The notes beneath the pieces were generated by a model that was given only the letters and a program-made list of their open reading frames with translations, did not search any database and had not been told where the DNA came from. Below, in pieces: positions 35,784 through 49,059 of a stretch of DNA of 64,000 bases. Numbering within the stretch: position 1 is the first letter of the stretch; every line of letters starts with the position of its first letter. The DNA is taken from positions 248,001 through 312,000 of the forward strand of contig NZ_NBDP01000005.1 in NCBI RefSeq assembly GCF_004123845.1. Direction: 5' to 3'. A program made the position numbers and the translations under genes. The DNA comes from Allobosea sp. Tri-44. Lineage in GTDB: Bacteria; Pseudomonadota; Alphaproteobacteria; Rhizobiales; Beijerinckiaceae.

Positions 35784-36122
35784 TCAAAAGAACTTGAGCG
35801 CGACCACGCCGGCGACGACCAGCGCGATACCGAGCCAGCCGGCCGGGCGGATGCGCTGACCGAAGGCAAGCGAACCGACCACGGCCGTCAGCACCAGGCC
35901 GACGCCACCCCAGACGGCGTAGGCGACCGAGAGGTCCATGCCGCGGATCGCCTGCGCCAGGGCGGCAAAGGCGCCGACGACGCAGAGCACGCCGAGGGCG
36001 CCGACGAGCCGGCGCTTGAGCCCGTCGGAGAGCTTGAGCAGGCTGGTGCCGATCACCTCGAGGGTAACGGCGAGCGCGAGCCAGGCAAGCGCGAAGGCCT
36101 GCGCGGAGGCAGCGAAGGTCAC
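35784..36122 (-). CDS. SMR-family transporter, second subunit of a pair
   Basis: A 112-residue four-helix small multidrug resistance protein. The proton/substrate Glu is in LALAVTLEVIGTSLLKLSDG (about residue 22). The third helix has AYAVWGGVGLVLTAVVG. It overlaps the preceding SMR gene by four bases, so the two are translationally coupled and probably form a heterodimer like EbrAB or MdtIJ, exporting a cation or polyamine. It lacks the [11 protein letters not shown] of guanidinium exporters. Confidence 0.85.
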   Translation of the reverse strand: MTFAASAQAFALAWLALAVTLEVIGTSLLKLSDGLKRRLVGALGVLCVVGAFAALAQAIRGMDLSVAYAVWGGVGLVLTAVVGSLAFGQRIRPAGWLGIALVVAGVVALKFF

Positions 36123-36475
36123 ACCAGCCTCCGCTCATCCTTCTCGGGAGCGTCGTGACCGACGCCGCGTTCCAGCAGCACGATGCCGCCGATGATCAGG
36201 GCCAGCGCCAGGATGCGCGAGACCGTGAGGTGCTCGGCGAAGAAGGCATGGCCGATCAGGGCGATGCCGACGATGCCGAGGCCTTCCCAGACCGCATAGG
36301 CAACGGCCATGGGGATGACGCGCAGCGCGATGCTGAGCAGGGCGAAGGATAACCCGATCAGCACGAGCGGCAGAACCGCGACGAGGACCGGGGCTGCGAC
36401 AAAGGCCTTCAGCGCCGACGTCGCGAGCAACTCGACGGCGATGGCCGCGAGCAGGATCAACCAATGGAAAGACAT
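36119..36475 (-). CDS. SMR-family transporter, first subunit of a pair
   Basis: A 118-residue four-helix SMR protein. The helix 1 Glu is in LLAAIAVELLATSALKAF (about residue 15) and helix 3 has AYAVWEGLGIVGIALIG, so an additional Glu lies in the membrane. An acidic/basic tail (DAPEKDERRLV) distinguishes it from its partner. It is the first gene of the pair, with a 515-base gene-poor region upstream. I searched that region for guanidine-riboswitch hairpins and saw none. Confidence 0.85.
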   Translation of the reverse strand: MSFHWLILLAAIAVELLATSALKAFVAAPVLVAVLPLVLIGLSFALLSIALRVIPMAVAYAVWEGLGIVGIALIGHAFFAEHLTVSRILALALIIGGIVLLERGVGHDAPEKDERRLV

Positions 36476-41471: not shown

Positions 41472-41549
41472 TGGTCGGAGCGAGAGGATTCGAACCTCCG
41501 ACCCCTTGTCCCCCAGACAAGTGCGCTAACCGGGCTGCGCTACGCTCCG
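41472..41549 (-). tRNA. tRNA-Pro (anticodon GGG)
   Basis: On the minus strand the acceptor stem CGGAGCG pairs with CGCTCCG, the D arm reads GCGCAGCCCGGTTAGCGC, the anticodon arm CTTGT-CTGGGGG-ACAAG shows anticodon GGG, and GGTTCGAATCC is the T loop. The CCA end is encoded. Length is 78 bases with CCA. Confidence 0.97.
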
Positions 41550-48021: not shown

Positions 48022-48336
48022 TCAGGAGACGAGTTTCAGCCCGACGATGCCGGCGACGATCAACCCGATGCAGGCAAGGCGCAGCGCCGTCGCCGGCTCC
48101 CCGAACAGGATGATGCCGAGGATGGCGGTGCCGATCGTGCCGATCCCGGTCCAGATCGCGTAGGCCGTGCCGAGCGGCAGACTCTTCAGCGCAAGACCAA
48201 GCAGCCCGAGGCTCACCACCATGCTGCCGACCGTCAGAACAGTCGGGATGAAGCGGGTGAAGCCGTGCGTGTATTTCAGCCCGATGGCCCAGCCGATTTC
48301 GAACAGACCGGCGAAGAAAAGATAAGTCCAGGCCAT
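48022..48336 (-). CDS. gdx: Guanidinium exporter Gdx (SugE)
   Basis: A 104-residue SMR-family protein of the Gdx subtype, which exports guanidinium in exchange for protons. Subtype hallmarks are all present: [22 protein letters not shown] with Glu13 and Trp16, [16 protein letters not shown] and the helix 4 Gly-rich end. This separates it from the paired SMR genes at 36 kb. The ATG at 48336 has AGGAGGG 6 bases upstream. That site is masked by a hairpin belonging to the riboswitch described separately. Confidence 0.93.
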
Positions 48337-48339
48337 GGC

Positions 48340-48420
48340 GGCCCTCCTCATGAGAAGGGCGGGGTCGTCCACGCCTGTTGGAAAACGCGCGCTCAAGGCA
48401 CCGCGGAGGTCGTCCTCGCC
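48340..48420 (-). ncRNA. Guanidine-II (mini-ykkC) riboswitch candidate
   Basis: In transcript order two hairpins carry ACGA loops: P1 GAGG-ACGA-CCTC (48417-48406) and P2 GGCGTGG-ACGA-CCCCGCC (48375-48358, one mismatch). A 30-base linker separates them. ACGR loops in a hairpin pair are the defining feature of this class. Next to P2, CCCTTCT-CATG-AGGAGGG (48359-48342) encloses the gdx Shine-Dalgarno. The last two bases of P2 and the first of that hairpin are shared, so guanidine-stabilised P2 should free the ribosome site. Folding is mine; binding is inferred. Confidence 0.75.
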
Positions 48421-48465
48421 GCTGATCTAGCGATCCTTGACCGGCGGTTCAAGCGCCCGAAGCGC

Positions 48466-49059
48466 TCAGGCGTCCTCGGTTGCCGCCGTCGCCAGGGCGC
48501 CATGCAGCAGGCGCCGGCATTCGATCAGTTCGGAGAGCGTCGCCTTCAGGAAGGCGAGATCGTCGGCGCCGATCAGCGGTTGGGCCGAGCGCGGCAGGGA
48601 GGAGAGCAGCGCCTTTGCAGCAAAGCCGGGCTCGGCGGCGGCCGCAGGATGATGGTACTGCGCCGATGGCGGCGCCTGCATCGGCTCCGGGCGCGGCGGT
48701 GCGGTTTGCGCAGCAGACTGGGCACCGGGAGCGCCGACGATCTCGCCGCCGCGGCCGATCGCCTGGACATGGCGCGGCCCCTGTTCCTTCAGGATGCGCT
48801 GCAGGCCCTTGATGGTGTAGCCCTCGCCGTAGAGCAGACGGCGGATGCCCTTCAGCAGGGCGACGTCGTCGGGCCGGTAATAGCGCCGGCCGCCACCGCG
48901 CTTCAGCGGCTTGATCTGGGAGAAGCGCGTTTCCCAGAAACGCAGGACGTGCTGGGGAATGTCGAGGTCGTCTGCGACCTCGCTGATGGTTCTGAATGCG
49001 TCTGGGCTCTTGTTATCCAATTCGGCCTCATATCCGCCGTCGTGGAACTCCAGAGTCAC
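48466..49059 (-). CDS. MerR-family regulator downstream of ihfA
   Basis: A 197-residue MerR-type protein with HTH at about residues 20-80 ([41 protein letters not shown], in part), then a Pro/Ala/Gln-rich linker and a C-terminal helix ([24 protein letters not shown]). This conserved gene sits after ihfA in most Rhizobiales. Its start overlaps the ihfA stop by four bases. The role is not established; the RYY after GGGRR is typical of this group. Confidence 0.9.

Follow-up and report, generated by a model that had tools for sequence, protein, structure and literature searches.

Guanidine-II (mini-ykkC) riboswitches form an established class, as do their ligand, their kissing loops and their link with gdx (PMC5486947, PMC12186494, PMC7266159), and the first-pass annotation of the DNA analyzed here had relied on this knowledge with good reason. 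According to the published consensus, the linker of these elements is of variable length, mostly with at least 13 bases (PMC5486947). The described systems differ in how the Shine-Dalgarno (SD) sequence is blocked. For gdx (sugE) of Escherichia coli, an anti-SD was proposed in the linker (PMC9300104, PMC9094411), and constitutive expression of gdx is reported for a strain in which the authors map a 20-bp deletion to P2 and presume it to be the cause (PMC13064478). In Pseudomonas aeruginosa, where a translational ON switch was shown in vitro with ribosomes, the SD is proposed to be held by P0, a helix made with the 5' flank (PMC9561414). For Gloeobacter violaceus, a stem loop was proposed that overlaps P2 and the ribosome site and is exclusive with the folded riboswitch (PMC5486947). 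In the portions of the literature covered by our search, linker, P0 with the 5' flank and P2-overlapping stem loop are the three placements of the SD block in print.

In this work, we analyzed a gdx leader of Allobosea sp. Tri-44, located in a stretch of 64,000 nucleotides hereafter called the window. As in Gloeobacter, a hairpin at the ribosome site overlaps P2, but this hairpin, the SD mask, shares only two or three bases of P2, and a helix over the start codon is predicted besides. The gene is the same as in E. coli, from whose system the element differs in that the E. coli anti-SD lies in the linker; with P. aeruginosa it would share the translational ON switch but not the place of the SD block, which there is P0 with the 5' flank and here a mask behind P2. 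We consider it very probable that the element is a divergent guanidine-II riboswitch working as a translational ON switch of gdx. Its mechanism would be of a known kind with a start-codon twist, which is plausible but unproven. Our literature search found no paper uniting guanidine, riboswitch and Bosea, and the Bosea branch with its paired defects, the pattern of aptamer loss and the predicted start-codon lock seem to be new, as none of them appeared in the parts of the literature that were searched.

The gdx locus and its leader

The gene lies on the minus strand, separated by 129 bases from a merR-like gene on the same strand. The parts of the locus, in window positions, are the following (basis in brackets):

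48466-49059, minus strand: merR-like gene, upstream of gdx
48424..48452, minus strand: putative promoter TTGAAC-17-TAGATC (direct reading, promoter scoring)
48406..48417, minus strand: P1 core hairpin GAGG-ACGA-CCUC (direct reading, Rfam alignment, Bosea alignment, lineage model)
48376..48405, minus strand: linker of 30 bases with pyrimidine-rich UUUUCC (direct reading, Bosea alignment)
48358..48375, minus strand: P2 hairpin GGCGUGG-ACGA-CCCCGCC (direct reading, Bosea alignment, lineage model)
48342..48359, minus strand: SD mask hairpin CCCUUCU-CAUG-AGGAGGG (direct reading, folding, near-clade alignment)
48342..48348, minus strand: SD sequence AGGAGGG (direct reading)
48329..48340, minus strand: start-codon stretch CGCCAUGGCCUG, predicted alternative partner of the P2 5' arm at 48377-48366 (prediction only)
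48022..48336, minus strand: gdx, 104 aa, predicted guanidinium exporter of the SMR family (profile and structure matches)

The first-pass annotation had described two hairpins with ACGA loops and a 30-base linker ahead of gdx, followed by a third hairpin in which AGGAGGG pairs with CCCUUCU. This arrangement is real, with P1 at 48417-48406, P2 at 48375-48358 and the third hairpin at 48359-48342, and the linker measures 30 bases, or 27 once the outer pairs of P1 are counted. The ACGA loops occupy 48413-48410 in P1 and 48368-48365 in P2. P1 can be extended beyond its four pairs, by a few outer pairs, only if C48405 is bulged, as it also is in the Rfam alignment, and the P2 stem is imperfect, with U48371 opposite C48362 forming a pyrimidine mismatch at the third pair. 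Between the end of P2 and the start of gdx there are 21 bases. The stability of the whole 121-base leader is not unusual (z -0.22).

The putative promoter matches the consensus at 7 of 12 positions and is predicted to start transcription at the base of P1. Among the 29 Bosea leaders described below, the second hexamer of the best site starts 12-13 bases 5' of the P1 core in 23, and the mean promoter score is 6.97 for the real leaders vs 5.41 for shuffled ones; a stricter promoter scan of the leader reported no promoter.

The 104-aa protein matches Multi_Drug_Res of Pfam and, at 142.2 bits vs a cut-off of 126, the NCBIfam profile PRK11431.1 (SugE). Its nearest solved structure is Gdx-Clo (6wk5, E 9.9e-32), to which it aligns free of gaps and in relation to which E13, W16, S42, Y59 and W62 are all kept. 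The tryptophan W16 is described as conserved among Gdx proteins and replaced by glycine or alanine in the Qac subtype (PMC7695847). Profile and residue matches both support what the annotation had read from the translation, that is, a member of the Gdx subtype of SMR transporters, for which export of guanidinium is predicted. Two other small SMR-family genes (112 and 118 aa), overlapping each other, lie about 12 kb from gdx (35784-36475, minus strand); they are likely a paired SMR, and similar pairs were found near gdx in other Bosea genomes.

Assignment to the guanidine-II class

No match to RF01068 was obtained at the element at the gathering score, the only Rfam match of the window at that score being a tRNA gene (41475-41549, minus strand, 61.5 bits). 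At relaxed thresholds, RF01068 aligned with the element over its full length at 18.1 bits vs a cut-off of 32, which made it only the fifth of 13 weak matches in the genome. The first-pass annotation had expected a hit with this model and had taken the lack of one as grounds for giving up the class; on these terms the result comes close to a refutation, but the comparison with Bosea leaders overturns it. The gathering score is a threshold of the library and not a defining trait of the guanidine-II class, and it is reached by only four of 29 intact Bosea gdx leaders (G015, G023, G037 and G041; stricter filters).

For this comparison, gdx was searched in 61 genomes of the genus, 119 genomes of the family and one named-genome collection (best 80 of 437). 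Genomes of the genus such as G035, G058 and G003 have leaders whose final 120 bases agree exactly with those of named Bosea records (L065, L066, L067), which identifies the genus as Bosea. We read 177 loci with a gdx-like gene, corresponding to 163 distinct leaders, 87 of them with two standard hairpins. An orthologue more than 78% identical to the window's gdx is present in 51 of the 61 Bosea genomes, and both ACGR hairpins are intact in 29 of these 51 leaders. Measured back from the start codon, the distance of the P2 loop in the intact leaders is 31-33 bases, except in L164 with 29, and that of the P1 loop is 64-84 bases. The P1 core GGACG + CC is invariant over the 29, except for the permitted A/G in the loop, and one P1 pair has changed on both sides, from A-U to G-C, in five rows. 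The two loop-adjacent pairs are kept in all 29 rows in P1 and in 28 in P2, the odd row (L164) being misaligned. The third pair of P2, on the other hand, is non-standard in 24 of the 29 leaders, the window's included, and standard in L025, L030, L151, L161 and L164, four of which are close kin. In other lineages (Massilia, Devosia; L096, L097, L099), one of the guanidine-II hairpins likewise has U.U as its third pair.

We built a lineage covariance model from 19 Bosea leaders, without the SD or the start codon. The near clade of the window's leader (nine leaders, its own included) was left out to avoid circularity, as was the poorly aligned L164. This model found 48425-48355 in the window at 57.4 bits (E 2.5e-11), the next match having 13.2; in the whole genome the E value was 2.3e-9, and the runner-up (L283), at E 0.019, had one core only. 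A model from all 29 leaders, which contains the window's own row by construction, found one place in the genome at E <=0.05. The two ACGR-loop hairpins, the G-C closure of the loops, a linker of at least 13 bases and a guanidine-related gene downstream are those of guanidine-II, and together with the Gdx protein the score of the clade-excluded model supports the class and the gene that had been proposed at first reading. The element shares with RF01068 the two G+C-rich ACGR hairpins, the G-C loop closure, the variable linker and the guanidinium exporter gene downstream, but differs in the bulged C of P1, in the pyrimidine mismatch at the third pair of P2 and in its score below the cut-off. Judged by its sequence, it belongs to a divergent branch of guanidine-II that Rfam mostly misses.

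The motif GGACGRCC-N8-38-GGACGRCC occurs once in the window vs 0.02 expected. As a proof, however, this count was dropped: genome-wide there are four such double cores vs 16 in a backwards control, so the motif alone proves little and the proof is comparative. Of the other 12 weak RF01068 matches of the genome, seven were read, and a second GGACGRCC core was present in none of these seven. The guanidine-I and guanidine-III models gave nothing above cut-off in this genome.

A hairpin over the Shine-Dalgarno sequence

In the free ensemble of the window's leader, the spacer that follows P2 pairs with the SD at 0.95. The local pairing of the SD (0.96) exceeds that of shuffles in which linker, spacer and 5' flank were permuted (0.48), a level reached by only one of 60 shuffles when set against the real value. 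For the 29 Bosea leaders, the corresponding values were 0.53 vs 0.28 in shuffles, with 22 leaders above the shuffle mean; over the 87 double-hairpin leaders, to which our ensemble figures on SD pairing refer, it was 0.49 vs 0.30, with 58 above. The arms of the mask, GCCCUUC and GGAGGGC, are invariant in all nine intact leaders of the near clade (own included), and the loop of 5-6 bases takes seven forms among them. Invariant arms around a variable loop are the pattern expected of a hairpin, and P2 itself does not require CUUC. The mask is weaker in the full set of 29 rows, with 72.7% of its cells paired and covariation not beyond that of shuffles. The SD mask is supported in the near clade, and we think it probable, though by no means assured, that it is the working block.

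The published models would place the block elsewhere, with an anti-SD in the linker, as in E. coli, or in the 5' flank, as in P0 of P. aeruginosa (PMC9300104, PMC9094411, PMC9561414). The window's own linker holds UUUUCC, and some Bosea leaders have the linker (L032, L158, L162) or the 5' flank as their predicted SD partner. When the 87 leaders are sorted by the predicted main partner of the SD, 57 use P2 plus spacer, 10 use the linker, six the 5' flank or P1 and four the coding region; the remaining 10 have none. Nevertheless, the window's linker takes a 0.00 share of the SD, against 0.95 for the spacer behind P2, and we regard a linker or 5'-flank block as unlikely at this locus.

Two other candidate signals were rejected. 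A wobble signature for re-pairing of the SD (G.U with U in the P2 3' arm) gave even counts (10/9 in P2, 7/9 in P1), and the conserved GCGCCGNC between the SD and AUG, taken as a possible anti-P2 signal, is present also in leaders without an intact aptamer.

Aptamer loss and second gdx loci in Bosea

The intact aptamer is absent from the first gdx in 22 of the 51 Bosea orthologues. In three, the whole leader is gone and gdx stands 7-33 bases behind merR (L033, L026, L019); others keep stems recognizable by eye around changed loops (e.g. L145, L148, L150, L165). L015 (genome G050), with a gdx 92% identical to that of the window and placed inside its clade on the gdx tree, lacks the element. SD pairing is 0.85 in the 29 intact and 0.70 in the 22 non-intact leaders (U-test p ~1e-3 to 1e-4, uncorrected for kinship). 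Hairpin remains with altered ACGR loops were noticed by eye in the gdx leaders L145, L146, L147, L148, L150, L152, L154, L155, L156, L165 and L038; these are candidates for naturally disabled riboswitches.

In 14 genomes, a locus with a guanidine-II-type leader holds another gdx-like gene, which shares 48-57% identity with the first; for the first gdx itself, two of these genomes (G016, G017) gave no close match. With genomes sorted by hand, all of the 12 others are non-intact at the first gdx, vs 10 of the 39 in which no second locus was found (Fisher p 4e-6). None of the 29 genomes with an intact element was found to have a second gdx locus led by a guanidine-II-type element, and as a control, none of the 12 gdx-like paralogues of intact genomes among the matches listed (L177-L184, L233-L235, L238) has a double hairpin. 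The gdx tree is based on one short gene and has good support for 14 of its 48 branches. Six changes are required to explain the distribution of the second locus on it, of which three or more are forced; the independent events are therefore few and the independent evidence for the loss pattern is modest. The pattern fits a first switch that was relieved once another guanidine-controlled exporter existed.

The leaders of the second loci are themselves diverse. Those of L166 and L176 have an intact double hairpin directly upstream of the gene, and in L167 and L171-L175 P1 reads GAGG-CCACGA-CCUC, a loop two bases larger. The second leaders of G055 and G060 are a variant with a single standard core (24.4 Rfam bits), and the second-locus elements of G045, G053 and G057 score 31.5-31.6 bits, just below the cut-off.

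Losses of this kind raise the question of whether the window's element is itself a decaying riboswitch, its P1 bulge and P2 mismatch being signs of a guanidine response already gone, as may hold for the loop-changed relatives. Its score below the RF01068 cut-off would agree with decay, as would the 22 non-intact orthologues, several with stems kept and loops changed, and the loss in L015 within its own clade. Against this, inner pairs are constant and the linker variable in the nine intact near-clade leaders, a set chosen for intact loops, so that its loop conservation is not independent evidence. In addition, the P2 mismatch is common to 24 of the 29 intact-loop leaders and thus looks like an old trait, and no second gdx locus led by guanidine-II was found in the window's genome. 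We consider decay highly improbable and retain a functional guanidine-II switch as the preferred reading.

In 10 of the 14 second-locus genomes, a gene for the F0F1 ATP synthase a subunit lies beside gdx and is itself directly preceded by a guanidine-II-type double hairpin (L225:1821-2871, L226, L227, L228:2539-1701 on the minus strand, L229-L232, L280, L281). The two a subunits tested scored 363.5 and 333.6 bits with NCBIfam, vs a cut-off of 225. These 10 genomes have two a-subunit genes each and the other four have one each, so the riboswitch-led gene is an extra copy; the a subunit of L228 is 60% identical to the single one of the window's genome. A wider spread of this AtpB paralogue was rejected, since in 297 genomes of the order identity did not exceed 63% among the best matches, and a double hairpin was absent from all of the 30 best AtpB loci (L246-L275). 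In the titles and abstract openings covered by our literature search, there was no report of a guanidine riboswitch ahead of ATP synthase or atpB genes. A guanidine-induced alternative a subunit, if true, would surprise.

P2, the mask and the start codon

At first reading, P2 and the mask had been proposed to compete because they share bases. The shared bases do exist: they are two (48359-48358), or three if the eighth pair of the mask (G48360-C48341) is counted. In our models, P2 has -8.3 kcal/mol and the eight-pair mask -12.7 kcal/mol, but P2 can coexist with a five-pair remnant of the mask at -11.4 kcal/mol vs -12.7 for the full mask alone. By these energies the two-base overlap is by itself a poor switch, and the competition through it is weak. 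It would become strong only with a predicted helix that the first-pass annotation had not seen. In the lowest-energy fold (-26.5 kcal/mol), the mask is predicted to stand together with a duplex in which the P2 5' arm CAGGCGUGG pairs with CCAUGgCCUG round the start codon, the mismatched U48371 being paired to the A of AUG.

Over the 29 rows, 92.7% of the cells of this start-codon helix are paired, vs 24-58% when the strands are slid, P2 having 85.7%. These values are suggestive only, since the start codon and the protein fix one side of the helix and P2 the other, and covariation equals that of shuffles. Of 48 natural P2 arms compared against the window's start region, the window's own ranks first, and 2.8% of random arms match it. 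Pairing of the start codon with the arm reaches at least 0.5 in 10 of the 29 Bosea leaders (seven among the near-clade nine) and in seven of the 58 others. The arm-start duplex has -4.3 to -9.5 in the five rows with a standard third pair vs a mean of -9.9 in the other 24. Computed with G at 48371, P2 goes to -14.5 vs -7.7 kcal/mol, and the start-codon duplex is little affected (-11.3 vs -12.7).

A start-codon lock by the P2 5' arm is unproven. Tentatively, and with more doubt than confidence, we suggest that P2 may serve two purposes in a double lock. As long as the switch is OFF, the 3' end of P2 would seed the mask and its 5' arm would lie over the start codon; the mismatch conserved in Bosea would be the price of this second pairing rather than a defect. 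By keeping P2 weak, the mismatch would ensure that only guanidine closes P2 in the brief interval between the synthesis of P2 and that of the mask.

Proposed order of events

Without guanidine, a small and toxic compound, the SD sequence AGGAGGG would be held in the hairpin with CCCUUCU, and the P2 5' arm would be paired over the start codon, as in the predicted lowest-energy fold. With guanidine, by analogy with other members of the class, from which we take ligand binding, kissing and the direction of the switch, the two ACGA loops would bind guanidine and kiss, holding P2 closed. This would free the start codon together with the foot of the mask, and ribosomes could load. That the switch acts mainly on the fate of the transcript, by Rho-dependent termination or RNA decay, is the least probable of the alternatives, for although coupling of a translation block to termination or decay is known in other riboswitches and counts in its favor, the elements directly overlap the SD and the start codon, and a scan of 48300-48560 gave no terminator-like site, a result that speaks only against an intrinsic terminator.

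Under the preferred translational reading, the choice is probably made during RNA synthesis, since the polymerase reaches the end of P2 (48358) before that of the mask (48342). When the growing transcript was folded in silico, P2 had a probability of 0.11-0.34 as long as P2 was complete and the mask was not, and of 0-0.08 once the mask was complete as well. In the free transcript the prediction of P1 is weak, ranging from 0 to 0.92 with the choice of ends. Forcing P1 and P2 together costs 8.3 kcal/mol, and even then the paired fraction of the SD is 0.75, of which 0.49 falls to the mask remnant and 0.25 to the coding region, so that these energies do not describe a clean equilibrium switch. From the weak P2 window and the cost of forcing, we infer that either guanidine captures P2 during synthesis or the ribosome completes the opening. 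The guanidine-II riboswitch of P. aeruginosa is reported to behave as a thermodynamic switch (PMC9561414), which argues against carrying over a kinetic reading untried.

Implications

Of the 29 intact Bosea gdx leaders, 25 fall short of the RF01068 cut-off, and surveys that rely on this model will therefore undercount such elements. With aptamers intact, loop-changed or absent at orthologous genes, Bosea offers a natural experiment on this riboswitch class. If the start-codon lock is true, a conserved mismatch in an aptamer helix would be explained by the second partner of that helix.
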